From positions 183,026 through 247,025 of the forward strand of contig KE159563.1 in assembly GCA_000403215.2 (NCBI GenBank): a stretch of 64,000 nt of DNA, read 5' to 3'. The stretch is from Lachnospiraceae bacterium A4 (GTDB lineage Bacteria; Bacillota; Clostridia; Lachnospirales; Lachnospiraceae). Position numbers and translations under genes: made by a program. The notes beneath the pieces were generated by a model. It did not search any database. It worked only from the letters and a program-made list of their open reading frames with translations, and had not been told where the DNA came from. How positions within the stretch are numbered: the stretch's first letter is position 1; each line of letters opens with the position of its first letter. Below are positions 9,776 through 28,726 of this stretch, in pieces.

Positions 9776-9883
9776 CCGCTCACTCTCCTCTACAACTTCT
9801 TGTCTACTAATTCTATTTTACCACTTTCATTCTTCTTTTACCACAAAAATATAGGGCATAGCAACCGCCACACCCCATAATTC

Positions 9884-10198
9884 TTATCGTTCTAGCGACT
9901 TCTCTATTTTCTCTTTCTGCCCTTTCAAATCATTCTGCTTTTCGTACAGACTGTTACGCTCCTTGCACAATTCTTTCATGCGTTCCAACTGCGCCCGCAC
10001 TCCCTCCCGGCAACCTGGCTCTATCTTTTTATATTCTCCGGTCAGATTGCGGATTGTATTGTTGTTTTCCTTTATCTGCTCCGACAGGCATACCCAATCT
10101 ATCAGATTTTGCACTTCCTTGTCCGTTTCGTAAAGGTCTGTTTCTGCCACGATTTTAGAACACAGCCGTATCATAACTTTCTTTTCCATATCCGTCAT
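9884..10198 (-). CDS. Mobilization-associated small coiled-coil protein (left copy)
   Basis: The 104 residues are mostly helical and charged (EGVRAQLERMKELCKERNSL region predicts a coiled coil). A nearly identical protein lies at 19890-20210, each directly after a MobV-type relaxase gene. Sequence similarity between the two elements begins just left of this gene, at ATAGGGCATAGCAACCGCCA. The function is unknown; a relaxase accessory role is inferred from position. Confidence 0.65.
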   Translation of the reverse strand: MTDMEKKVMIRLCSKIVAETDLYETDKEVQNLIDWVCLSEQIKENNNTIRNLTGEYKKIEPGCREGVRAQLERMKELCKERNSLYEKQNDLKGQKEKIEKSLER

Positions 10199-10217
10199 AT
10201 CCTATCAATCCCCTTTC

Positions 10218-11076
10218 CTATCGGATCATTTCAAAGGCACGTTTCTGGCGTTTCTTTGCCCTTTCTGCCTGTTCTAACGCCTTTGACCGTTCCACTATCA
10301 ACTGTACCTGTTCCCTGCCTAAATGACGCTCCAAACGCCCCAAATCAAACGCTTTTTCTTGCAATCGGTCTATGATGTTGCTCTGTTCCATAACCTTATC
10401 TGTCAAGCGGCTAATCTGTATTTGTTGCCCGTCCACTTTGGCAATCAGCTTCCTGCTTTGCTCCATAAGCTATACGCATTTGATAGTCAGATTTTTTACT
10501 ACCTCTTTTAATCTTTCCACAAGCGGAAGTGCCTCTTTATCCCGATAATTCTTTGCGCTCATCAACGCCCCCGGCTCTGCCAACTGCCATTTCATATCTT
10601 CATCATAAACGTGGATATTTCTCTCCATGACTTCCTTTGACTGCGCCATTTTGTTAAGTTCCTGCTGTAACTTTTTCTGCTGTTTCTCCAACTTTTCATT
10701 TTCGGATAACAGCTTTTCTTTATCCTCCGCCAATGTTTCCGTCTGCTCTTTCAGCAGATGATTTGTTGCGGTAAGTTCCGACACTTCCCGCCGGATCGCT
10801 TCGCCCTCTTTCCGTATCTGCTCCGTTTCCTGTCCTGCCGCTATCTGCTGATGAAGAATGTCAGATAATTCTTCTTTACTGCCGTTCCTGCTTTTCAAAA
10901 TCCAAAACAGATAAGTGCTTTTCATGCGTTCCTTTTTTCTCCCACTCAATACCATGCTGTAACATAATCTCCGCAAGCCGTTCTTTCTCTGCCGCTGCCC
11001 ACTGGTTACGTTCCGTTTCGCTCCTTGTGCCGCCCTTGAAGCCGAGTTCTGCCTGTGCCTTTTTTAATGATACCCT
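10218..11076 (-). pseudogene. mob: MobV relaxase, decayed (left element)
   Basis: Compared with the intact relaxase at 20226-21596, this copy has lost its N-terminal ~170 codons including the HUH motif. It begins at RVSLKKAQAEL (about 11076), fused to the cut AAA ATPase gene. It also has a frameshift after LSVLDFEKQER, and an in-frame stop after NLTIKCV where the intact copy has CVQLTEQSKK. Three independent lesions show it is dead, so this element cannot mobilise itself unless helped in trans. Confidence 0.85.
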
Positions 11077-11713: not shown

Positions 11714-12793
11714 TCAAAAACCCCCTTTCCCTAAATCGTCTAATCTGTCTGCCATCTCCGTCTGCTTTGACGGAAACAAATGTGCATAACGGTAAGTGAT
11801 TTCAATGCTCTCATGCCCTACACGGTCAGCAATCGCCACCGCCGAAAACCCCATGTCAATCAATAAACTGATATGACTATGGCGTAAATCGTGAATCCTA
11901 ATACGCTTTACCCCTGCGGCTTTTGCGCCCCTGTCCATCTCATGGTGCAGATAACTCTTTGTCACCGTGAAAATGCGGTCTTTCTTTTTTAACCCATAAA
12001 GCATACTGATATACTCCTGCATTTCCTCACATAGGAACTTCGGCATTTTGATTGTGCGGTTGCTCTTTTTCGTTTTCGGCGTGGTAATCACATCCTCGCC
12101 ATGCAGACGCTGATAGGATTTGTTAATCGTGACTGTTTCTTTATCAAAATCAAAATCTGCGGCGGTCAATGCTAATAATTCCCCCTCGCGGATTCCGCAC
12201 CAGTAAAGCATTTCAAAGGCATAAAAGGAAACTGGCTTGTCCATCATTTCATCCGCAAACTTCTTGTATTCCTCTTTTGTCCAGAACAGCATTTCCTTGT
12301 GTTCCTCGCTCCCCATGTTTCCTGCCTTTGCCGCAGGATTGGAGCGGAGGTCGTAATAGCGTACCGCATGGTTGAATATCGCTGAAAGCTGATTATGGAC
12401 TGTTTTCAAATAAGTCTGCGAATAGGGATTCCTCTTTTCATCACGGTAGGCAAGCAGCTCATTCTGCCATGCAATGATTTCCTTTGTGGTAATCTCGCTA
12501 ATCTTCATCTTCCCAAAATACGGAAGAATTTTTGTACGGATGATATGCTCCTTTGTGAGCCAAGTGTTCTCTTTCAGACGGTTCTTTATATCATTCGTAT
12601 AAATTTCTGCAAAAGATTCAAAATCCATGTCAAGGTCAGCGGAATCCTGTAACTGGAACTTACGCTCCCACTCCTGCGCTTCCCGCTTTGTTGCAAAGCC
12701 ACGCTTGCATTTCTGCTTACGCTCCCCTTTCCAGTTCACATACCTTGCCATCACATACCAAGTGCCGTTGCCGTCATTTTTGAATACTGGCAT
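11714..12793 (-). CDS. int: Tyrosine integrase (left element)
   Basis: The 359-residue protein has an N-terminal AP2-like arm-binding domain (GTWYVMARYVNWKGERKQKC), a SAM-like core-binding domain (about residues 55-160) and a catalytic domain. The catalytic residues are R in CGIREGELLAL, HxxR in HDLRHSHISLL, H in GHESIEITYRY and Y in YAHLFP. It is of the Tn916/phage type found on mobilizable elements, and would integrate and excise the element together with the Xis-like protein next to it (1 bp apart). It is about half identical by eye to the right-element integrase, so the target may differ. Confidence 0.93.
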   Translation of the reverse strand: MPVFKNDGNGTWYVMARYVNWKGERKQKCKRGFATKREAQEWERKFQLQDSADLDMDFESFAEIYTNDIKNRLKENTWLTKEHIIRTKILPYFGKMKISEITTKEIIAWQNELLAYRDEKRNPYSQTYLKTVHNQLSAIFNHAVRYYDLRSNPAAKAGNMGSEEHKEMLFWTKEEYKKFADEMMDKPVSFYAFEMLYWCGIREGELLALTAADFDFDKETVTINKSYQRLHGEDVITTPKTKKSNRTIKMPKFLCEEMQEYISMLYGLKKKDRIFTVTKSYLHHEMDRGAKAAGVKRIRIHDLRHSHISLLIDMGFSAVAIADRVGHESIEITYRYAHLFPSKQTEMADRLDDLGKGGF

Positions 12794-13966: not shown

Positions 13967-14102
13967 AACAGCAAAATCACCAGATTAAATATTGATTTAT
14001 TGTGCCTTACAATAAGTCAATACGCATTTATAGCCAAAAAGTGCACTTAAAATGTTCACTGCGCCATATCCTAAAGTTTTTTCAACAATCTACTTAAAAC
14101 AA

Positions 14103-14148
14103 AAAACGCCCTTAGCCATGAGTTACTACCCACAGCTAAGGGCGTTTT
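14103..14148. terminator. Bidirectional terminator
   Basis: AAAACGCCCTTAGC and GCTAAGGGCGTTTT form a perfect 14-bp stem with an 18-nt loop, with A/T runs on both sides. The surrounding gap 13967-14630 has no gene I can support. It carries this terminator, the TAGAGCCA repeats and the second palindrome. Confidence 0.85.
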
Positions 14149-14432
14149 AATATGGATTTATTTCAGCCATCCAAACCTCTTGCAAATCATTCTGCCACCT
14201 GTAAACCATTAGACAACAAGAATAATCGCACTCAAATGACTGTTATCAATTTGTTATCAAAAGACCTCTCGAAAGCCCGCAAGCCCGCATAAGCACTGGG
14301 TTTCTTCAACTTTCCACCTTATTCGAACTCCTCGGCGGATAGCTTGAACTGACTGTTTTTCCCTCATTTTTCAAGCATTTATTATCCATATTATTCAAAA
14401 ATTGCTCTTGTATTTTTGCCAGTCAAAATTTT

Positions 14433-14451
14433 TAGAGCCAAAATAGAGCCA
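14433..14451. repeat. TAGAGCCA direct repeats, left element right end
   Basis: Two copies of TAGAGCCA, starting 11 bp apart (14433 and 14444). The same pair with identical 11-bp spacing lies at 27074-27092 at the equivalent end of the right element. Position beside the presumed att site suggests arm-type integrase binding sites. Confidence 0.7.
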
Positions 14452-14487
14452 GACAGAATCCACGCATTTCTCTTGCCTGCTTTATTA

Positions 14488-14507
14488 ACATAGTGCTAGC
14501 ACCATGT
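14488..14507. repeat. 20-bp palindrome, copy 2 of 3
   Basis: ACATAGTGCTAGCACCATGT, one mismatch from the copy at 6662. It lies 37 bp right of the TAGAGCCA pair, where the att core of the left element would be expected. Confidence 0.75.
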
Positions 14508-14630
14508 GATTTTTACACCCATTGTGACAAATCCACAAAAGGCTTACCTTGATAGATTTCCGTAAATTTAAGAACATCTTCTAAGCAGTCTTAAGGAACA
14601 TTTTTTACAACTGGTCACTCTCTCAACTAT

Positions 14631-15419
14631 CTAATGTATATATGGTGTAACAAAATCAATAAACTTTTGTATATTCACTGCTAATGTCGGTATTCCATTT
14701 GCAATTGTAATCATAGGTGCTAATAATTTAATGCCATTACTTATAATTTTCCCTTTAGGTTCTGGTTTCATTATCTCTTCTTTTATCATTTCCATAGAAT
14801 CCTCTATTGTCTCTGCATCATCTTCTCCTATTTCTGAAAGACTACTTTTAATCGAATTTATGATTTTTTCTAATTCGTTCGTTGATACCCCATTATTCTG
14901 TTCTGCAGTTATCATTGCGTTATCCCTTGCATAATTTACTTGACCACCACTTACATTCCAAACAACATTTTCATCTAATCCCATATCTATACCAACTCCT
15001 GTCAAATAATCATTAATATTATTTATCAAAACTAATAACACTCTATCATTAAATTGCTTAACATTATCTTGCCATTTTCTTTCTCCATAAATGCTATGAA
15101 AAGCATAAACAGGTTCTTTGATATTTCCTTCTATATGTTTCAATATCGAATAAATTTGATAACTTTCCTCCTCTGCCGAAGGTCCAAAGTCAAACATATA
15201 TCCTTCTTCATGTACAACTAAATCCCAATCAGATGCAGCATCATATGTATTGCCGCTTCCTTGATTAATATAATCTAAAATAATTAAATTATTTTCTATA
15301 TAAGCAATAAACTTTTTTAATACTATATTGTACTCATCATAATTTACCCGCATTATTCTGCTGGAAATCGAATTAAAATTATGCATAATTTTTTTAAGTT
15401 CTTTTTTATTCAAATCCAT
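14631..15419 (-). CDS. Unknown protein downstream of reverse transcriptase
   Basis: The 262-residue protein is not recognised. It has an acidic, mostly soluble N-terminal part with SGNTYDAASDWDLVVHEEGY and a ~40-residue acidic helical stretch (EIGEDDAETIEDSMEMIKEE). A hydrophobic C-terminus (IKLLAPMITIANGIPTLAVN) could insert in a membrane or pack as a helical hairpin. Its start overlaps the zinc-ribbon gene stop by 14 bp, so the two are translationally coupled. Position after the reverse transcriptase suggests the same operon. Whether it contributes to defence is unknown. Confidence 0.6.
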   Translation of the reverse strand: MDLNKKELKKIMHNFNSISSRIMRVNYDEYNIVLKKFIAYIENNLIILDYINQGSGNTYDAASDWDLVVHEEGYMFDFGPSAEEESYQIYSILKHIEGNIKEPVYAFHSIYGERKWQDNVKQFNDRVLLVLINNINDYLTGVGIDMGLDENVVWNVSGGQVNYARDNAMITAEQNNGVSTNELEKIINSIKSSLSEIGEDDAETIEDSMEMIKEEIMKPEPKGKIISNGIKLLAPMITIANGIPTLAVNIQKFIDFVTPYIH

Positions 15420-15864
15420 AATCCATCACTCCACAATACGGGCAATAACTGCCACTCATTTTAAGTATCGGTTTCAACTTTACTTCTTTCTTACAACAAG
15501 GATATATTTTTTTCTCAAATGCCTCTATTGTAAGCATAACTGGCAGTTCAGGCTTTCTATTAGGCTTCTTTGACACTTTGAAGCTAATACTGCCTTTTAT
15601 TTTCTTTTCAAATTTTTTCAATTCTTTCATAATTAAATCATTTGCATAGTTTTCTGCCATAGCCAACCCCAACTCAATTACATCATTAGTAACATAGCTA
15701 TCACTTACCAACCCACAGGCAGGACAATACACTACAAACACACTATCGTCCTGATAATCACTCGGATTTAATTTAAATAATTCTCCACATAAAGGACATT
15801 CTAGCAGCACGAACCCCTCTTCATCCGTTGGTACACTAATTTGAAACACCATTTCTTCACTCAT
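15406..15864 (-). CDS. Zinc-ribbon protein, two CxxC pairs
   Basis: I place the start at 15864 (MSEEMVFQIS), which has AAGAGG upstream, rather than 15888. Of 152 residues, the N-terminal half holds CPLCGELFKL and CPACGLVSDS, and the C-terminal end has CC and CPYCG. So two treble-clef or zinc-ribbon sites flank a helical lysine-rich middle. The family is unknown to me. It follows the reverse transcriptase gene by about 90 bp and overlaps the next gene by 14 bp. A nucleic-acid-binding role is inferred only from the zinc ribbons. Confidence 0.65.
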   Translation of the reverse strand: MSEEMVFQISVPTDEEGFVLLECPLCGELFKLNPSDYQDDSVFVVYCPACGLVSDSYVTNDVIELGLAMAENYANDLIMKELKKFEKKIKGSISFKVSKKPNRKPELPVMLTIEAFEKKIYPCCKKEVKLKPILKMSGSYCPYCGVMDYGFE

Positions 15865-15951
15865 ACAAATCCTCTTTTCGTTCCACATTATATTAGGGTG
15901 AAATTATCCTATAACTATTGCAAATCTCTCATTCTTCATACTTTGTACGAT

Positions 15952-17250
15952 TTAACGCTTCAACTTGCTGTTGATCTTATACCAGTGTTTTTTTACTTGA
16001 TTTCTAATTTCACTTACAAGCACCTCACTCTGGCTAAATATCTCGTCCGCCTTATATGCATATGTAAGAAAATTCCCATGATCTTTGGAAAACTTACTTG
16101 CACCTAAATGTGTGTATGAATGATAAATCGCTTTTTTTCCTGCGTTAAACGACCTTTCATCAGTATTCTCGTTTACTTTTTTAATTTTTCTATATGCTCT
16201 ACAATAAAACTTAAATAAACTCTTATCTCTTATACGAACAGTTTTTCCATCAAATGTAAAACCAAGATAATTAATAAGATTACTTTGCCCCTTTATCTTT
16301 TCTATGCTTCCATTATTGTAAAAAAAATGCTCTGTTTTATCTTCATTTAACTCTAAATTAGGAATATTATCTCTAATTCTATATATAATTTCTGCTATAT
16401 CTTCACTTCTTCCACTTTTTACATCATTATGCGTCATAGGAACAATAATTATTATATCATCACAATATCGCCTATACATTCCTTTCTGAGAAGTAATTAA
16501 GTCATTTATCTTCTTATCAAAATCTATCATATAAACATTAGCATACACCGCACTTATAGACGAACCTTGTGGAATCTGATAGTCCTTCTGATTCTTATGC
16601 AAACACTTTTTCTTGAACATATGAAAGTCATTTGTTTCAAAATACTTATCAAAATTCCTCATATCTCTTCTAAACATACCCTTATCAGACTCTATATCAT
16701 CAGCTTCAACATATGTAAATTTTGTAATATTCTTATAAATAGCATAATCAGCCACATCTAATGACTTTTTACCAATTACGCTTTTAATTTTTTCTTTCAA
16801 ATACCTGTGGTCAAGATTATCAAAGAATTTGCTAAAATCACCTACAAAAATATAAGCAGATTCACATTTGATAATATATTCAAACACTTCTTTCGCAAAA
16901 TCAATATTACATTTTCCTGGTGTACAATTTCTGTAAGCTGTTGAAACACGACTGATCCCACTTGATTTCATATAATTATTGTATCTGTTGTTAAGGCGAT
17001 TTCCATAATACTCATAAATAAACCTATCAATATGTGCAGCATAAAATATATCTCGATTTTTTTCTTTAATAAACTTATTTCCTTCTGAATCATTCGTATA
17101 TTTGCTACAATCCATTTGAAAGTGAATAAATGGATAAAATCCGTGTCTACTAACCCAATTTATATTCTCAACTCTTTGCTGATAATTAGTGTGATATTTC
17201 TTTATGTCTAAATGTGTATAAAATTTATCCTTATATATTTGATTGCTCAT
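15952..17250 (-). CDS. Defence-associated reverse transcriptase, DRT2-like
   Basis: The 432-residue protein is a complete reverse transcriptase domain with little else. Motif A is FVGDFSKFFDNLDHRYLK (two aspartates), motif B IPQGSSISAVYANVYM, motif C YRRYCDDIIII; a YLGFTFDG segment follows in the palm/thumb region. No maturase, endonuclease or retron-specific domain is visible, so it is not a group II intron. It starts at ATG 17250 behind AGGAG. The ~500-bp leader upstream has no normal gene but carries a 135-nt template-like unit with a split promoter and an endless reading frame. This matches DRT2 (UG2) systems, where the enzyme copies a cis-encoded noncoding RNA by rolling-circle reverse transcription. 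The family assignment rests mostly on the leader; the reverse transcriptase call is secure. Confidence 0.9.
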   Translation of the reverse strand: MSNQIYKDKFYTHLDIKKYHTNYQQRVENINWVSRHGFYPFIHFQMDCSKYTNDSEGNKFIKEKNRDIFYAAHIDRFIYEYYGNRLNNRYNNYMKSSGISRVSTAYRNCTPGKCNIDFAKEVFEYIIKCESAYIFVGDFSKFFDNLDHRYLKEKIKSVIGKKSLDVADYAIYKNITKFTYVEADDIESDKGMFRRDMRNFDKYFETNDFHMFKKKCLHKNQKDYQIPQGSSISAVYANVYMIDFDKKINDLITSQKGMYRRYCDDIIIIVPMTHNDVKSGRSEDIAEIIYRIRDNIPNLELNEDKTEHFFYNNGSIEKIKGQSNLINYLGFTFDGKTVRIRDKSLFKFYCRAYRKIKKVNENTDERSFNAGKKAIYHSYTHLGASKFSKDHGNFLTYAYKADEIFSQSEVLVSEIRNQVKKHWYKINSKLKR

Positions 17251-17255
17251 TTTTC

Positions 17256-17560
17256 TCCTAAAAGCTTACTGAGTAACGACCGGTAGATATCTAATATCAA
17301 TAAGCATTAAAATCAATTGGATCTTGTTTTCACAAGAAACTCTACCATCCTCCAAATACGATGTGTTGTATAATATTATTAACAGCTACTTTAGTTCACT
17401 GGTAATAGGAGGTCATACAATGGACAATATAATTCTTAATACTATCAACTGTATACTATTAATTCTGGTCAAGAACGTTCTTGACATAGAATACGTAATA
17501 CCCTTATAGCTATTTCTATAAGGCAAAAATAAATCTATGGACAAATCATTAAAGAATTTC
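17256..17560 (-). ncRNA. Candidate DRT2-type template noncoding RNA
   Basis: This is the leader of the reverse transcriptase, transcribed on the minus strand. A TATAAA box at about 17568 could start an RNA of about 300 nt, near the size known for DRT2 RNAs; a second possible promoter (TTGACT...TATAAA, 15-bp spacer) lies near 17755-17730. Structures seen are CCTTATAG/CTATAAGG with a 6-nt loop (17502-17523), directly beyond the 5' template boundary; the 18-bp palindrome GTCAAGAACGTTCTTGAC (17468-17485); and TCTTGT/ACAAGA with a 4-nt loop (17322-17337) on the 3' side. Exact ends are not known. Confidence 0.65.
17361..17495 (+). other. neo: Predicted neo repeat unit with junction-formed promoter
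   Basis: The unit is bounded by the direct repeat AATACG (17355-17360 and 17490-17495), 135 nt apart, that is 45 codons. On the cDNA-sense plus strand it contains TATAAT (17369-17374), AGGAGG (17407-17412), ATG (17420) and TTGACA (17481-17486). If copies are joined at AATACG, TTGACA is followed by exactly 17 bp and then TATAAT, giving a consensus sigma-70 promoter at every junction. The frame from the ATG has no stop in the unit or across the junction. The product would be a repeat of 45 residues beginning MDNIILNTIN and ending VIGGHT, hydrophobic and helix-prone. In the genome itself the frame ends at a TAG at 17507. DRT2 Neo proteins are toxic or growth-arresting repeat proteins made after phage infection; the function here is inferred. 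Confidence 0.8.
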
Positions 17561-17776
17561 CTTCCATTTTATAGCTTCTTCCGCCAAAGTAATCCTTTTA
17601 TCCACTTTTCATGATCTTGAGAATATCACACTTCACTATTGCTCCATTACATGAAATCTTATTCATCTCTTTTCTCCATCCATTGACACTCGCTGATAGA
17701 ACGCCAATCTTTTTTAGAATGACATAACTTTATATCCGACATAAACCCTAGTCAATTGTTCCAAACAATATAGTGA

Positions 17777-18192
17777 TTACCTCCCCCTATGCTTCTCTTT
17801 CCTTTTCTGCTGTTTCAGTTCAAACTGCCGTTGTTTCTCTGCTTCTCGCTGCTCCCGACTCACAATCTTACGTTCAGTTTTCAACTGCTCCTGCTGTAAT
17901 TTCAGAACCTGTTGCGATTTTGTTCCTATCCCGATATTCTGTACCTGTTTCCGCACTTCACGTTGTACCCGTTTAGAATTGCAACCAGCTTCTTTTACAT
18001 CAGTTGCCACAGTCGGACTAAATCGTAACCGATAGTAATTTTTCAGAACAAACTCATAAACCTCATAGTCTTTTGGTTCTGCCCCAAATGTAACCTTACA
18101 CACAGATAGCTTTCCATCTGATACACGTTCAAACACTCCCCCCAAAAGGGTTCTTCAAAAAATACTGTCAACTTTCCTAATACTTTGTCCAT
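17777..18192 (-). pseudogene. yjdF: YjdF (DUF2992) family protein, frameshifted in a G tract
   Basis: The natural start is ATG 18192 behind AAGGAGG (MDKVLGKLTVFFEEPFWGG...), but a run of six G (18138-18143 as C on plus) throws it out of frame. One more G restores an uninterrupted ~138-residue YjdF: VFERVSDGKLSVCKVTFGAE, then YYRLRFSP and a charged tail ending EKHRGR. YjdF function is unknown; its genes are controlled by the azaaromatic-binding yjdF riboswitch, which is present upstream. The single-base change could be decay, phase variation or an assembly error. Confidence 0.85.
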
Positions 18193-18199
18193 GACAATT

Positions 18200-18340
18200 C
18201 CTCCTTAAAATAATTGTAATGAACAAAGAACGGACGACCCTAAGGAGGGAGGGCTACTTACACCAAATCGGTGCGACCGGACTACCTACCGGTTCTGCAA
18301 GATTCTCTTGCATTGTGTTTTTATCTTTGCCCCTTTATAT
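18200..18340 (-). ncRNA. yjdF (azaaromatic) riboswitch
   Basis: The leader between about 18340 and the yjdF start has GAACCGGTAGGTAGTCCGGT and a CCCTCCCTCC-type segment close to the ribosome binding site. This is the yjdF RNA pattern that binds azaaromatic compounds and controls translation of yjdF. Assigned from memory of the motif plus the downstream gene; a covariance search was not possible. Confidence 0.75.
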
Positions 18341-18435
18341 TACCACATAATCGCTGATTCTTCCATAAAAATGTGGCAATTCGCTTGATATTGTAAACTG
18401 CCACATTACTGCCTTTCCCTTAACTGCATTAACTT

Positions 18436-18455
18436 ACATGGTGCTAGCTCCATGT
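18436..18455. repeat. 20-bp palindrome, copy 3 of 3
   Basis: ACATGGTGCTAGCTCCATGT, one mismatch from the perfect copy at 6662. It lies between the yjdF riboswitch and the GNAT gene stop, so copies 2 and 3 bracket the reverse transcriptase-yjdF cargo. Confidence 0.75.
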
Positions 18456-19766: not shown

Positions 19767-19889
19767 ATTTTCTCCTTTTTGTTCATCTCTGCTAATTGAT
19801 AAATACCAACTATAGATTTGATTATATCACTTTCACGCTCCATTTGCCACAAAAATATAGGGCATAGCAACCGCCACGCCCCACATTTC

Positions 19890-20210
19890 CTATCGTTCTA
19901 GCGACTTCTCAATCCTCCATTTCTGCCCTTTCAACTCATTCTGCTTTTCATACAGATTATTGCGCTCTTTGCAGAGTTCTTTCATTCGCTCCAACTGCGC
20001 CTGCACTCCCTCCCGGCAATCCGGCTCTATCTTTTTATATTCCCCGGTCAGATTGCGGATTGTATTGTTGTTTTCCTTTATCTGCTCCGAAAGGCATACC
20101 CAGTCTATCAGATTTTGCACTTCCTTATCCGTTTCGTAAAGGTCTGTTTCTGCCACGATTTTAGCACACAGCCGTATCATAACTTTCTTTTCCATATCCG
20201 TCATATCCAA
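19890..20210 (-). CDS. Mobilization-associated small coiled-coil protein (right copy)
   Basis: The 106 residues are nearly identical to the protein at 9884-10198 and follow the relaxase gene by 15 bp. The charged helical middle (REGVQAQLERMKELCKERN) predicts a coiled coil. Likely a relaxase partner; function unproven. Confidence 0.65.
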   Translation of the reverse strand: MDMTDMEKKVMIRLCAKIVAETDLYETDKEVQNLIDWVCLSEQIKENNNTIRNLTGEYKKIEPDCREGVQAQLERMKELCKERNNLYEKQNELKGQKWRIEKSLER

Positions 20211-20225
20211 TCAATCCTCACTTTC

Positions 20226-21596
20226 CTATCGGCTCATTTCAAAGGCACATTTCGGACGTTTATTTACCCTTTCTGCCTGTTCCAATGCCTTTGACCGTTC
20301 CACTATCGACTGCACCTGTTCCCTGCCGAAATGACGCTCCAAACGCCCCAAATCAGACACTTTTTCCTGTAATCGGTCTATGGTGTCGCTCTGCTCCATG
20401 ACCTTATCCGTCAAGCGGCTAATCTGTATTTGTTGCCCGTCCACTTTGGCAGAAAATTTCTTGCTTTGCTCCGTAAGCTGTACGCACTTGATAGTCAGAT
20501 TTTTAACGACTTCTTTCAATTTCTCCACAAGCGGTAAAGCCTTTTTATCCCGATATGCTTTTGCGCTCATCAATGCCCCCGGCTCTGCCAACTGCCATTT
20601 CATATCTTCATCATAGGCGTGTATATTGCGCTCCATGACTTCCTTTGACTGCGCCATTTTGTTAATGTCCTGCTGTAACTTTTTCTGCTGTTTCTCCAAC
20701 TTTTCATTTTCGGATAACAGCTTTTCTTTATCCTCTGCCAATGTTTCCGTCTGCTCTTTCAAAAGAAGATTTGTAGCGGAAAGTTCTGATACTTCCTCCC
20801 GGATCGCTTCGCCCTCTTTCCGTATCTGTTCCGTTTCCTGTCCTGCCGTTATCTGCTGATGAAGAATATTGGATAATTTCTTTTTGCCGCCGGAAATCGT
20901 CTGCTCCAGTTCAGCAACTTCTTTTGCACGTTCTTTTTTCTCAAAATCTAAAACAGATAAATGCTTCTCATGCGTTCCTTTCTTCTCCCACTCAATATCA
21001 TGCTTTAGCATAATCTCCGCAAGCCGTTCTTTCTCTGCCGCTACCCACTGGTTACGCTCCGTTTCGCTCCTTGCGTCACCCTTAAATCCAAGTTCTGCAA
21101 GTGCCTTTTTTAATGACACCCTTGTTTCAAGCCCTCTCTTGCTTCCAGTCGTATAGGGTATAAAATCTATATGCAGATGCGGCGTGGCTTCGTCCATGTG
21201 AAGATGCGCCGAAAATACCCTTAATGTAGGATTGCGCCGCTGAAAGTCCTGCATATATTCGTCAAGTATTTTTGCCGCAACCTGTCCGTCCTCTGTCCTT
21301 GCCCCCATATCGTCCTTGTTGCCTATCTGCAAAATAATCTCATGGAATGGCTTCTCCTGTTTGCCGGAGCAGATTTTCTCATAATAATCATCAATTATGC
21401 GGTTACTTCTGGTCTGCTTCTCATTGTACCGGGCAAGTGCTTCATCAAATAATTCGTGGTATACGTCTTTGATATTTTTGTTGCAGTATTCCACATTCAG
21501 ACAACTCCGCTCCGGGTCAGTGTTCTTTGCATGGAATTTTCTGCTGTTGTGGTTGACAGAGCCTTTCCCTGTCATAACGCTGATAGTCCGCTTCAA
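20226..21596 (-). CDS. mob: MobV-family relaxase (Pre/Mob)
   Basis: The 456-residue protein begins with the N-terminal Mob_Pre domain (KRTISVMTGKGSVNHNSRKF) and carries the metal-binding HUH-like motif VFSAHLHMDEATPHLHIDF near residue 130. From residue 230 on it is a long coiled coil (KEQTETLAEDKEKLLSENEK). It would nick oriT and lead transfer through a helper's type IV secretion system. It is intact, unlike the copy at 10218-11076. The oriT candidate lies just upstream. Confidence 0.92.
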   Translation of the reverse strand: MKRTISVMTGKGSVNHNSRKFHAKNTDPERSCLNVEYCNKNIKDVYHELFDEALARYNEKQTRSNRIIDDYYEKICSGKQEKPFHEIILQIGNKDDMGARTEDGQVAAKILDEYMQDFQRRNPTLRVFSAHLHMDEATPHLHIDFIPYTTGSKRGLETRVSLKKALAELGFKGDARSETERNQWVAAEKERLAEIMLKHDIEWEKKGTHEKHLSVLDFEKKERAKEVAELEQTISGGKKKLSNILHQQITAGQETEQIRKEGEAIREEVSELSATNLLLKEQTETLAEDKEKLLSENEKLEKQQKKLQQDINKMAQSKEVMERNIHAYDEDMKWQLAEPGALMSAKAYRDKKALPLVEKLKEVVKNLTIKCVQLTEQSKKFSAKVDGQQIQISRLTDKVMEQSDTIDRLQEKVSDLGRLERHFGREQVQSIVERSKALEQAERVNKRPKCAFEMSR

Positions 21597-21627
21597 TCAA
21601 TTTCCCTTTCTCCCTGTCGGGTAATGA

Positions 21628-21673
21628 GCGCCGGACACGGCGCATAGCCTTTGTTACTTTCTGCGAAAGTAAC
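21628..21673. other. oriT: Candidate origin of transfer (oriT)
   Basis: Directly upstream of the relaxase are GTTACTTTC-TGC-GAAAGTAAC (21653-21673), a 9-bp perfect hairpin, followed leftwards by AAAGGCTATGC on the minus strand, and GCGCCG-GACA-CGGCGC. MobV oriTs have a hairpin a few bases from the nick and lie upstream of mob, which fits. The nick position is not resolved. Confidence 0.55.
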
Positions 21674-21812
21674 GCAAAAACACTTTTGTCAGCTACGCCA
21701 ACAAAAATGCAACCCGCAAGCGGGTTTTGCGCCCTGCCGGGGGCTTTTCCGTCCTACCGGACGGGGCGGCTTTTCGCCGCCTTGATACCGCCGCTTTCCG
21801 GCTTTTTTCCAA

Positions 21813-21911
21813 CAGCGCAACATTGCAATGTCTATAATTTTTGCAACCTTGCAATCTTCAAGAACGCAATTCCAAGACTGCAAAATTCTAATACCCTGCA
21901 TTGTTGCGCTG
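21813..21911. repeat. Inverted and iteron-like repeats between mob and repA-like gene
   Basis: CAGCGCAACATTGCA (21813-21827) and TGCATTGTTGCGCTG (21897-21911) are inverted with one mismatch. Within them, GCAACATTGCAAT and GCAACCTTGCAAT are near-direct repeats 25 bp apart. They lie just downstream of the RepA-like ATPase gene and could be a replication origin for the excised circle or a relaxosome site. Confidence 0.5.
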
Positions 21912-21927
21912 TTGCCTTGCCCGTCCG

Positions 21928-22905
21928 TCACTGTCTGATTTTATCCAATTCCCAATACCATGTGTTGTTTATCCGTTTTGCCCGGACACCTAACTCTTTC
22001 TTCGCATTTTCCAGTGTCCGCTTCGATATGCCCTGTTCGTCTGCAAGACCGAAAGTCTCATTGCTCTGCATGGCGTTGTTTGCTTCTGCCAGTTCCCGAA
22101 GTAACCGCTTTGCCTGTTCCATTTTATTTGCTTTGGGAGCTATGCCGCCTAACACTTCATCAGCGGTAATCTCATAATCTCCAAGCCATTGAAAACCGTC
22201 CTCCGACAGTGCAAATGCTTTTGGGTGTCCGAACGCAGCAAGGTTGTTTTTAATCTGCACCACAGCCCTTGTATTTTCTTCCCCCTCTACTCTGCCGACC
22301 AACAAAACACTTCTAGCGACTGCAAAGAAATCAATCGAACCCATTCCCCGGTATGCCGCCTTATTTCCCGCCGCTTTATTCATGTGACCGACAAGGACAA
22401 TCGCACACTGATATTTCTCTGCCAATGCCGCCAACTTCTTTGTCATGTCCCTTGCTTCATTCGCACGGTTCATATCCATACCGCCGCCCAAATAGGCTTG
22501 TATTGGGTCTAAAATCAGCAGCTTTGCACCTGTCTTTATAACGGCTTCTTCCAGCCGTATATCTATCATAGAAAGGGATTTTATCCTTTCGTCAATGACA
22601 GAGATTTTCTCACAGTCTGCCCCTGCCTGTTCTAAACGGGGCTTTACCGTATCGGCAAGACCGTCCTCCGTACTCTGATAGATTACATTCAAAGGCTCTG
22701 TAAAATTCATTCCATTGTCTAAATTTTCTCCCTTAGACAGTTTCGCCGCTATATTCAGAATAAATGTTGTCTTTCCGTCCCCCGGATCGCCTTGAACAAT
22801 AGTCAGTTTTCCATAAGGGATAAACGGAAACCACAGCCAAGAAACTTCCTGAGACTGTATCTCCGATAACTTAATCAACTGCAATTCTGTTTTTGTTTCT
22901 TCCAT
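21928..22905 (-). CDS. repA: RepA-like AAA ATPase/helicase
   Basis: I prefer the start at 22905 (MEETKTELQL) behind GGAGGG. The ~325-residue protein is an AAA_25/RecA-fold hexameric helicase-like ATPase: Walker A VQGDPGDGKTTFILN, Walker B AKLLILDPIQAYLGG, then VLVGHMNKAAGNKAAYRGMG. The C-terminal winged helix is QGISKRTLENAKKELGV. RepA proteins of this type unwind plasmid or element DNA at replication. On an integrative element it may replicate the circular form during transfer. Confidence 0.85.
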   Translation of the reverse strand: MEETKTELQLIKLSEIQSQEVSWLWFPFIPYGKLTIVQGDPGDGKTTFILNIAAKLSKGENLDNGMNFTEPLNVIYQSTEDGLADTVKPRLEQAGADCEKISVIDERIKSLSMIDIRLEEAVIKTGAKLLILDPIQAYLGGGMDMNRANEARDMTKKLAALAEKYQCAIVLVGHMNKAAGNKAAYRGMGSIDFFAVARSVLLVGRVEGEENTRAVVQIKNNLAAFGHPKAFALSEDGFQWLGDYEITADEVLGGIAPKANKMEQAKRLLRELAEANNAMQSNETFGLADEQGISKRTLENAKKELGVRAKRINNTWYWELDKIRQ

Positions 22906-23028
22906 AATGCCCTCCATTTCTGAAAAATCGTTGTCATTGGAAGAAACCTCTGCTATACTTGTATTGTGGATACTGATAACAGAGGTTTTCCAGTTATCAC
23001 AGCCCTAACAGTTGCCGCTGTCGGAGCT

Positions 23029-23394
23029 TTATTCTTCTCCGTTGGTGTTGCCCTGCCACAGATATTTTGCTCCGTCCAATACCCACAGGATAGCTTTCAG
23101 CATATCAAGACAGTCATTCCGCATATCTTTTAATCCCTCCGGCGTTAAATCAACATCTGCCTTTTCAAACTGTTCTGTTACTTCCCGGATATTGGTCTGC
23201 ATTATCTTTAGTTCCTCTACCAACTGGTAAACAAGTTCTTTTTTACCAACCACGCACACCCGGTTATAAATGCAGGAGCGGACAAAATAATCTTTCTTAG
23301 AAAGTCCGCTTGCTAAAATCTTTGCTTCGATTTCTTCCCTCTCTCTGGTGGAAATACGAAAACTGATTGTCGGGTATTTATGCACTCCGCTCAT
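23029..23394 (-). CDS. mobC: MobC-like relaxosome protein (right element)
   Basis: The 121 residues begin MSGVHKYPTISFRISTRERE, followed by LASGLSKKDYFVRSCIYNRV, an RHH-type DNA-binding start shared with the left-element protein. The rest is helical. It overlaps int by 4 bp (ATGA type). Expected to bind oriT with the relaxase. Confidence 0.65.
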   Translation of the reverse strand: MSGVHKYPTISFRISTREREEIEAKILASGLSKKDYFVRSCIYNRVCVVGKKELVYQLVEELKIMQTNIREVTEQFEKADVDLTPEGLKDMRNDCLDMLKAILWVLDGAKYLWQGNTNGEE

Positions 23395-24455
23395 TCTTCT
23401 TCCTCCCTGCTGTTCTCCATCTCCAATTTATCTGCAAGTTCCCCCTGCTTATTGGGATATAAATGCGAATAAGTATTCAATGTTGTTTCGATTTTCTCAT
23501 GCCCCAACCGTTCCGCAATCGCTAATGGTGTAAAACCCATTTCCACAAGTAACGAAGCGTGACTATGACGAATATCGTGCAAACGTATTCTTTTTACCCC
23601 GGAAGCCTTGATACCTCTGATAATTTCATGCTCCATATAAGATTTTGTAAAACGGAACATTCTTTCGTCTGCCATAATTCCGTATAAATGCGAAATGTAC
23701 TCCTTTAATTCTTCCGTCAAAAACGGCGGTATCGTTATGATACGCTTGCTTTTTGGTGTTTTAGGCGGTGTGATAATGTCACTGCCCTCTATCCGCTGAT
23801 AAGATTTATTTACGGAAATGGTACGCTTCTCTAAATCAATGTCATTATAGGTTATAGCAAGCAATTCCCCAATCCTCATTCCCGTCCAGTAAAGGAGCAG
23901 GAACGCCATTTTGGTTTCCGGCTTGTTCTCCACAGTCACAAGAAACTGTTTAAACTCCTGCTTCGTCCAAAACTCCTTTTCCCCGGCGTGGCTCTTTCCG
24001 ATACTCCCGGCTTTCCGGCAAGGATTATCTTTCAAATCATAGTACCGAACCGCATAATTGAAGATTGCCGACAACTGATTATTGACTGTTTTCAGATACG
24101 TTTCCGAATATCCTTTTTTCATCAGTGCATTTTGCCAAGCCCGAATGTCGGAAGCCTTAATCTCATTCATGTTCTTTTTCTTGAAATATGGAATAATTTT
24201 CAAATCAATAATGAATTTCTTTGTACGCATGGTATTTTCACGCAGACGGTGTTCCATATCCTCATAATAAATTTGTACGAAGTTCTCAAAATTGATGTCT
24301 AAATTTCTCTGCTGCTGTTGCAGAAAGTCACGCTCCCATTGTTCCGCTTCCGCTTTTGTCTTAAATCCCCTCTTGTTCTTCTTGTGGCTTACACCCTGCC
24401 AGTCCTTATAATAGAACTGGCAACGCCACATCTTTCCGTCCCTTGTCGCTGACAT
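23391..24455 (-). CDS. int: Tyrosine integrase (right element)
   Basis: The 354 residues share the layout of the left-element integrase: N-terminal arm-binding domain (WRCQFYYKDWQGVSHKKNKR), core-binding domain and catalytic domain with R in TGMRIGELLAI, HxxR in HDIRHSHASLL, H in GHEKIETTLNTYSH and Y in the same segment. The element's attachment end abuts guaA, so guaA's 3' end is the likely target. Confidence 0.93.
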   Translation of the reverse strand: MSATRDGKMWRCQFYYKDWQGVSHKKNKRGFKTKAEAEQWERDFLQQQQRNLDINFENFVQIYYEDMEHRLRENTMRTKKFIIDLKIIPYFKKKNMNEIKASDIRAWQNALMKKGYSETYLKTVNNQLSAIFNYAVRYYDLKDNPCRKAGSIGKSHAGEKEFWTKQEFKQFLVTVENKPETKMAFLLLYWTGMRIGELLAITYNDIDLEKRTISVNKSYQRIEGSDIITPPKTPKSKRIITIPPFLTEELKEYISHLYGIMADERMFRFTKSYMEHEIIRGIKASGVKRIRLHDIRHSHASLLVEMGFTPLAIAERLGHEKIETTLNTYSHLYPNKQGELADKLEMENSREEEE

Positions 24456-27151: not shown

Positions 27152-28726
27152 TTACTCGAACTCAATCGTCCCCGGCGGCTTACTAGTCAAATCATAAAAC
27201 ACCCGATTCACCCCCCGCACCTCATTAATAATCCGGCTCATAACCACTTGCAGCACCTCAAACGGAACCTCCGCACTCTCCGCCGTCATAAAGTCAACCG
27301 TATTCACCGCACGCAGCGCAACCGCATAATCATACGTCCGCTCATCTCCCATGACACCGACACTCCGCATATTCGTAAGCGCCGCAAAATACTGTCCAAT
27401 GCTCCTGTCCAATCCCGCCTTTGCAATCTCTTCGCGGTAAATCGCATCTGCGTCCTGCACAATCCGCACCTTCTCTGCTGTAACTTCCCCAATAATCCGA
27501 ATCCCAAGCCCCGGTCCCGGGAACGGCTGCCGAAATACCAATCTATCAGGAATCCCTAGTTCCAGTCCTGCCTTTCGAACCTCATCCTTAAACAAATCCC
27601 GAAGCGGCTCAATAATCTCCTTAAAATCCACATAATCCGGCAGTCCGCCGACATTATGGTGCGACTTGATTACAGCCGACTCCCCGCCAAGACCGCTCTC
27701 CACCACATCCGGATAAATTGTTCCCTGTGCCAGGAAATCCACGGTGCCAATTTTCTTCGCCTCCTCCTCAAACACACGGATAAACTCCTCACCAATAATT
27801 TTCCTCTTCGTCTCAGGCTCTGTCACACCGGCAAGCTTCGCATAATACCGCTCCTGCGCGTTGACACGGATAAAGTTCAAGTCAAAGTCCCCATTTGGAC
27901 CAAAGACAGCCTCGACCTCGTCCCCTTCATTTTTACGAAGCAATCCATGGTCCACAAAGACACACGTAAGCTGCTTTCCGATTGCGCGCGACAGCAGACC
28001 TGCCGCAACTGACGAATCCACACCGCCAGACAATGCAAGCAGCACTTTGCCGCTGCCAACCTTTTCGCGAATCTGCTTTACAGACTCCTCCACAAACGAA
28101 TCCATACGCCATGTGCCCGCACAGCCACAGATGCCCCGCACAAAGTTATCAATCATTTTTGTTCCCTCAACCGTATGCAGCACCTCGGGGTGGAACTGGA
28201 TTACATAAAGCTTCTTCTCTGCACACTCCGCTGCTGCCACCGGACAGTCTGCCGTGTGCGCACAAACTGAAAAACCGGGAGCGGCCTGAGAAATATAGTC
28301 ATTATGGCTCATCCAGCAAATCGTTGACGCCGACACACCGGCAAACAAAGGAGAATCCGAAGCTACTGAAACCTGAATCTTTCCGTACTCACGCACCGGC
28401 GCTTTTTCCACCTTACCGCCAAGTATATGCATCATGAGCTGCGCGCCGTAACAAAGCCCCAATACCGGAATCCCCAGCTCAAAAAGTTCCTTTGTGTAAG
28501 TGGGCGCATTATCTTCATAACAGCTATTGGGCCCGCCAGTCAGAATAATCCCCTTGGGTGCCATCGCCTTAATCTGTTCGATGTCCGTCCTGTACGAATA
28601 AATCTCACAGTACACATTGCATTCCCTGACACGCCGTGCCACAAGCTGATTGTATTGACCGCCAAAGTCAATCACCACCACCTTTTCATCGGAAAGCCCC
28701 TTCCCTGCGGAATGTCCTTTTTCCAT
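27152..28726 (-). CDS. guaA: GMP synthase (glutamine-hydrolysing)
   Basis: GuaA converts XMP, glutamine and ATP to GMP. The 524 residues hold the class I amidotransferase domain ([19 protein letters not shown]; nucleophile in [19 protein letters not shown]), the ATP pyrophosphatase domain ([17 protein letters not shown]) and the GMP synthase dimerisation domain ending KPPGTIEFE. Length is normal. Start at 28726 has GAGGAGG upstream. Its 3' end is a known hotspot for integrative elements, and the right element ends beside it; the last codons are intact. Confidence 0.97.

Follow-up and report, generated by a model that had tools for sequence, protein, structure and literature searches.

The window analysed here, a stretch of 64,000 nucleotides from Lachnospiraceae bacterium A4, carries on its minus strand a gene for a DRT2 reverse transcriptase (RT) of 432 amino acids with a YCDD active site (15952-17250), identified as an open reading frame, by PADLOC profile and by phmmer. 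Directly upstream of it, on the same strand, lies a structured non-coding RNA (ncRNA) with a 5′ handle and a 3′ scaffold, as in DRT2 systems; the predicted DRT2 ncRNA spans 17262-17530. The plus strand of the same segment bears a short direct repeat, two promoter halves, a ribosome-binding site and a start codon, the signals of a putative neo gene. The sequence-only reading of this DNA, which proposed a DRT2-type system with a split promoter and an endless neo frame, was silent on the opposite orientation of neo and the RT.

The class of the RT is clear from its profile scores. PADLOC profile PDLC03757 (Drt2) gave 450 bits, against 66 bits for the next class, RT_UG17, and 52 bits for Drt9. The score with the NCBIfam Drt2 equivalog NF041746 was 349 bits (E 4e-104), under its cut-off of 390 bits, which marks the RT as a divergent member of DRT2. 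The best solved relatives are likewise DRT2 structures, such as 9c0i (phmmer E 2.4e-48), to which residues 11-408 were aligned with YCDD opposite YCDD, so that the YxDD motif is intact. Profile and solved relatives thus agree with the class that had been proposed. The gene is rare: 8 of 397 sampled genomes of the family, the window's own counted, contain a match with an E value of 1e-20 or lower. In a quick maximum-likelihood tree of 88 RTs the window RT grouped with those of loci L009, L089, L010, L011 and L012 (SH-aLRT 96-100); the deep forks were weakly supported. L077 and L080, proteobacterial loci with a TGT junction and a 120-nt unit, fell elsewhere in the tree and served as stand-ins for Klebsiella pneumoniae DRT2 (KpnDRT2), which the tree does not contain. 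The L077 RT gene had no match among E. coli genomes, and single queries of Viral_contigs with the window and L072 RTs found no relative. The same collection searched with alignment A1 gave four loci (L107-L110), whose leaders were inspected and kept outside all counts.

The neighbourhood of the RT has the appearance of mobile DNA. Directly downstream, on the minus strand, are two genes (14631-15419 and 15406-15888) that match the PADLOC candidate defence system PDC-M14 (M14B 284 bits, M14A 180 bits). On the other side an azaaromatic (yjdF) riboswitch (18214-18334, 66 bits) stands ahead of a DUF2992 gene (17777-18334, minus strand). Window positions 14099-18455 share 98% identity with a contig from a different genome (L116), against approximately 86-87% for the adjoining blocks, a pattern that would result if related mobile elements had swapped a cassette comprising DRT2, PDC-M14 and the yjdF region. 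In L116, nearly one and the same stretch matches both 9841-10884 and 19817-20963 of the window. Two tyrosine integrases, a MobV-like relaxase and an AAA ATPase are encoded in 11714-12793, 20226-22917 and 23391-24455, and these regions are probably neighbouring integrative mobilisable elements.

The plus-strand signals were read at their coordinates and compared with relatives. The direct repeat AATACG occurs at 17355-17360 and again at 17490-17495, an offset of exactly 135 nt; the first copy would mark the start of the cDNA unit and the second its end, the template jump site. Between them lies the predicted 135-nt template region of the ncRNA (17361-17495, minus strand), of the same length in L009-L012 and L089. 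When 17495 is joined to 17361, TTGACA (17481-17486) comes to stand 17 bp before TATAAT (17369-17374), the -35 and -10 elements of a consensus promoter that is absent from the genome order. The joined copy continues with a Shine-Dalgarno (SD) sequence AGGAGG (17407-17412), which is kept in L010-L013 and L089, then 7 nt and the neo start codon ATG (17420-17422); many relatives have an SD-like motif and an in-frame start as well. Of the three plus-strand frames of the unit, that of this ATG alone is open, the junction included, giving a Neo repeat unit of 45 codons (17360-17494, aligned with relatives) with no stop inside it or across the junction. Its translation is DVLYNIINSYFSSLVIGGHTMDNIILNTINCILLILVKNVLDIEY. 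All of these elements had been described in the sequence-only reading, and repeat, promoter, ribosome-binding site and frame were each confirmed at the positions it gave.

That reading had also judged a coincidence of these elements very unlikely. A scan was made for perfect TTGACA and TATAAT hexamers 50-190 nt apart and joinable at a spacing of 16-18 bp, with any junction homology. On both strands of the 64-kb window it returned nine records, and homology of at least 6 nt was found in this locus alone. When the 500-nt leader was shuffled 20,000 times with its dinucleotides preserved, a joinable perfect pair was present in 527 shuffles and was accompanied by 6-nt homology in 8; none combined these with a length that is a multiple of three and an open frame. 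The judgement therefore holds, and the layout recurs in relatives.

Relatives were collected by a genome scan with alignment A1, the best 80 of 170 being named as loci. The five nearest homologues in the RT tree share 99% (L009), 84.5% (L089), 73% (L010), 71% (L011) and 68% (L012) identity with the window RT, and all five have a stop-free unit of 135 nt. The junction repeat differs among them: it is AATACG in L009, as in the window, AATAC in L010 and L011, ATAC in L089 and no more than TAC in L012. The conservation that had been looked for in homologues is thus found for a unit that is stop-free and a multiple of three, and for junction microhomology, but not for AATACG as such. Open units were also present in L013 (132 nt), L016 (129 nt) and L090 (132 nt). 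L014, of the same clade, is closed under the strict rule set out below and has a 150-nt open unit at a spacer of 18; L017 and L015, also of this clade, have short leaders of 250 and 20 nt. In L011 the RT has one in-frame stop, at codon 94, yet the 135-nt neo unit is open; this is either a recent pseudogene or a sequencing error. Two loci with a DRT2 RT and a predicted neo lie on phage-labelled records: L089/L117 (MT837010.1), a human gut scaffold whose RT is the one 84.5% identical to that of the window, and L090 (CP103976.1), Clostridioides phage HGP05.

Comparison of the leaders also supported the RNA. The minus strand from 17535 to 17251 folds with z = -3.49 relative to shuffles, and the consensus structure of nine leaders, computed with nested pairs only, contains 58 pairs, 26 of them with changes on both sides. 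The 5′ handle is a hairpin (17502-17523, minus strand; arms CCTTATAG/CTATAAGG) whose helix 1 is paired in 98.6% of cells and has three pairs with changes on both sides. The 3′ scaffold (17262-17354, minus strand) comprises helices 5-9, of which helix 7 is paired in 100% of cells and has five such pairs. In shuffled controls the mean number of pairs with changes on both sides was 8.5, and 0 of 500 3′-letter shuffles attained the observed covariation values; when pair partners were slid, paired cells fell from 92.7% to 37-46%. As the consensus was predicted from the same related sequences, both of these covariation controls lean toward it.

The ends of the ncRNA were placed from the fold, the covariation and the point where DNA similarity stops, the 5′ end falling near 17530 and the 3′ end near the ribosome-binding site of the RT; both are predictions. 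The window can be aligned as DNA with L010, L011, L012 and L117 from 15958-16036 up to 17524-17532; the similarity stops there, just beyond the 5′ handle. L011 has one extra, separate match at 27161-28559. Since the similarity covers the ncRNA and the RT jointly and stops at their edges, the two appear to be inherited as one unit. No convincing chromosomal promoter for the ncRNA itself was found, the promoter scan giving 4 sites where 3.2 were expected.

To follow the layout beyond the nearest homologues, a rule blind to the reading frame was applied to the leaders of DRT2 RTs, the only leaders that the scan covered. Each hexamer was allowed at most one mismatch, the joined spacer was set at 17 and junction homology of at least 3 nt was required; the best candidate was that with the highest homology minus twice the mismatches. 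The set held 81 leaders, 63 of them non-redundant: the window, L004 and 79 of the 80 genome loci, L015 having been dropped because of its 20-nt leader. L001 (which is the window itself) and the partly masked L007 were left out, as were L002, L003, L005, L006 and L008, whose contigs are as long as those of the named loci L009, L012, L036, L083 and L078, respectively.

A unit was called in 57 of the 63 non-redundant leaders, which derive from the best 80 of the 170 relatives; its length was a multiple of three in 51 of these 57, and in 46 it was stop-free as well. This extends to distant relatives the test proposed for homologues in the sequence-only reading. Fifty shuffles of each leader (3,150 sequences) gave 1,420 calls, 496 of them multiples of three and 57 open, and the reverse complements of the 63 leaders gave 39, 17 and 1, respectively. 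The misfits consist of six leaders without a call (L017, L025, L067, L071, L072 and L075), six called units that are not a multiple of three and five that are but have no open frame. Six loci from plasmids and phages (L089-L094) were added later, taken from 29 plasmid and 3 phage records that matched; the set then comprised 87 leaders, 68 non-redundant, with 61 calls, 53 multiples of three and 47 open units. The phage-labelled L089 and L090 fit the rule. The plasmid loci L091-L094 (from Enterococcus faecium, Lactiplantibacillus plantarum, Calothrix and Psychrobacter, respectively) had no open neo unit under it, L091 giving no call and L092-L094 closed units. The rule is thus valid for many distant branches and not for every DRT2-like RT.

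The spacer itself was examined in those leaders, 39 of the 87 (near-duplicates included), where only one perfect hexamer pair exists. A spacer of 17 gave homology of at least 3 nt at the junction in 31 of the 39, more than any of the 18 other spacers between 8 and 26, which gave it in 0-19 of the 39; room for chance homology grows with the length of the spacer. At 17, the unit was a multiple of three in 35 of the 39 and open in 32. For L077 (Pandoraea) and L080 (Paraburkholderia) the rule recovered the TGT junction and the 120-nt unit reported for Klebsiella, and these loci thus serve as a positive control. It also finds open frames in L074 and L088, which are missed when the unit start is fixed. 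When 23 problem leaders were re-examined with looser settings (a spacer of 16-18 and at least 2 nt of homology), 17 of them yielded some open unit of a multiple of three. This search was not blind and is plainly unspecific: its hits include one in L071, a locus that has no ncRNA, and units outside the template in L070 and L072.

The 47 open units from the 68 non-redundant leaders are 120 to 207 nt long; the 207-nt call, in L004, is probably wrong, as a second candidate of 144 nt fits too. In 34 of the 47 an SD-like motif precedes a start codon that lies no more than 75 nt from the -10 element, whatever the frame; in 28 of the 47 there is such a start in the open frame. The mean GRAVY of the open frames is 0.74, against -0.30 in the other frames of those units, and that of the window unit is 0.90.

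Within the Neo frame, changes at codon positions 1, 2 and 3 number 4, 5 and 4 between the window and L010, 4, 5 and 6 for L011, and 9, 13 and 9 for L012; against L012, 4 Neo codons differ synonymously and 19 non-synonymously. There is no third-position excess in any of these three comparisons, and selection on the amino-acid sequence of Neo is therefore not visible. It seems likely from these alignments that the openness and physical character of Neo are kept and that its sequence drifts. Such drift agrees with passages of PMC12039810, which describe a hydrophobic bias in Neo and account for most of its conserved residues by motifs at the DNA level. It suggests that the toxicity of Neo may not depend on sequence. 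An AlphaFold2 model of one Neo unit is a single long helix, too weak to interpret (pLDDT 74.5, pTM 0.43).

One sublineage apparently lacks neo. In a Lachnospiraceae DRT2 clade (L067, L070 and L072), as in L112 and L113 of the same family, the RT frame is open; the RTs of L067 and L072, the two that were scored, gave 416 and 418 bits with Drt2. Inspection of this sublineage shows a conserved 5′ handle and 3′ scaffold. The two are separated by 63-66 nt in L067, L070 and L072, and the leader stretch of L111 is that of L070; in the sister loci L078, L085 and L056 the separation is 150-183 nt by a rougher measure with a slightly earlier anchor. In the template stretch of L067, L070 and L072 no promoter halves were seen, and stops occur in all three frames. 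Units delimited by an ATA repeat, chosen by eye, are 47-64 nt long in L067, L070, L072, L112 and L113, with 0 of 5 a multiple of three. These five loci may represent DRT2 systems in which the production of Neo has been lost, which raises the question of what role DRT2 has when its template cannot code. L071 and L095 seem on inspection to be without the ncRNA altogether.

The layout of the locus, the class of its RT, its conservation and the fold of its RNA form the basis of our interpretation: the locus is very probably a DRT2 anti-phage system that makes neo from joined copies of its template. The sequence-only reading had arrived at such a system, and it gains support from the RT class and from the stop-free units, multiples of three, in homologues. 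For cDNA synthesis, transcription, toxicity and defence at this locus we infer the following course. The RT would bind the ncRNA, whose gene directly precedes its own on the same strand and whose covarying fold is described above. It would copy the 135-nt template and, at its end, jump back through pairing of the junction repeat (AATACG, AATAC or TAC), giving head-to-tail cDNA. This would become double-stranded on phage infection, as in the Klebsiella system, and the TTGACA-17-TATAAT sequence present at each junction would then act as a promoter. Transcription antisense to the ncRNA would yield a stop-less mRNA with AGGAGG-ATG in every repeat. Its translation would give a hydrophobic Neo of 45-residue units, and, by analogy with Klebsiella, the resulting growth arrest would block the phage.

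Three other explanations were considered. The first is that in this clade the concatemeric cDNA is itself the effector, in place of the Neo protein, and that the open frame is a relic. The missing codon-position signature of protein selection would suit this, as would the related sublineage in which the templates are short and filled with stops and the RT is still open. However, the multiple-of-three length, the open frame, the junction promoter and the SD-start would be expected to degenerate without use, and all of them are retained across deep divergence; we consider a cDNA effector improbable.

It is highly improbable that neo is an ordinary small gene in the style of a type I toxin-antitoxin system, independent of the RT, in which AGGAGG-ATG at 17420 would direct synthesis of a 29-residue hydrophobic peptide (17420-17509). 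The frame from this ATG does reach a TAG in the genome after 29 mostly hydrophobic codons, and it sits opposite a structured RNA. A conventional gene, however, needs neither 20 stop-free codons 5′ of its ATG, nor a repeat distance that is a multiple of three, nor -35 and -10 halves in reversed order; these features recur in most of the called DRT2 leaders (only leaders of DRT2 RTs having been scanned), and the similarity to four relatives spans the ncRNA and the RT together, ending at their edges. Finally, a chance meeting of promoter halves, repeat and open frame beside an RT has a negligible probability: TATAAT-like sites are common in a leader this AT-rich (31% G+C), but none of the 20,000 shuffles reproduced the combination, and it recurs in independent relatives.

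The assembly of genes by reverse transcription was discovered only recently, through work on Klebsiella. According to passages of two papers from 2024, PMC12039810 and PMC11100668, which set out the DRT2 mechanism, neo lies antisense to the ncRNA in Klebsiella DRT2. In passages of the former, all 42 orthologues closest to KpnDRT2 have stop-free units that are multiples of three between short repeats, with lengths of 111, 117, 120 or 129 nt. The 2024 preprint calls annotation 'more challenging' in divergent DRT2 clades and regards an alternative mechanism as possible. The main texts of PMC12039810 and PMC11100668 contain no word starting with Clostridi-, Bacill-, Lachnospir- or Firmicutes. Among the papers listed by literature searches and screened by title and start of abstract, with PMC12596737 covered by passages, none dealt with Neo in Bacillota.

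The occurrence of the same layout in many distant relatives bears on this open question in the field. On balance we favour the view that most divergent DRT2 clades, Bacillota included, use one rule, a 17-bp junction promoter, microhomology of any sequence and a stop-free unit that is a multiple of three, with no alternative mechanism. The letters of the junction, the length of the unit and the sequence of Neo would drift freely, Neo would act by its hydrophobic, repetitive character, and neo would be ancestral to DRT2 and lost in at least one sublineage. The four plasmid loci that do not fit the rule make this view slightly less probable. The frame-blind rule offers a means of predicting Neo in divergent DRT2 clades.

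Among related systems, DRT10 is a defence RT with an ncRNA that produces tandem-repeat DNA, and the opening of the abstract of PMC12632851 mentions no neo-type coding unit for it. The window locus differs from KpnDRT2 in its junction, which is AATACG, AATAC or TAC in this group and ACA (TGT in the cDNA sense) in KpnDRT2; the Kpn-type repeats ACA-1 and ACA-2 are absent from the ends of the window template. Its unit is 135 nt, against 120 nt in KpnDRT2, and the open units called here span 120-207 nt, against 111-129 nt in the 42 orthologues. Its RT stands on a separate, mostly Bacillota branch, with L077 and L080 representing KpnDRT2. The locus is thus a well-supported further DRT2 system on a divergent Bacillota branch, with a junction repeat of its own and a putative Neo unit of 45 codons. 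In other respects the two systems are alike: the RTs are homologous, the ncRNA lies upstream on the same strand with neo antisense to it, TTGACA and TATAAT are 17 bp apart only when the unit ends are joined, a ribosome-binding site and start codon are present, and the unit is stop-free, a multiple of three and predicted to encode a hydrophobic Neo. The Klebsiella-type design can thus be read from the raw sequence on a distant Gram-positive branch.
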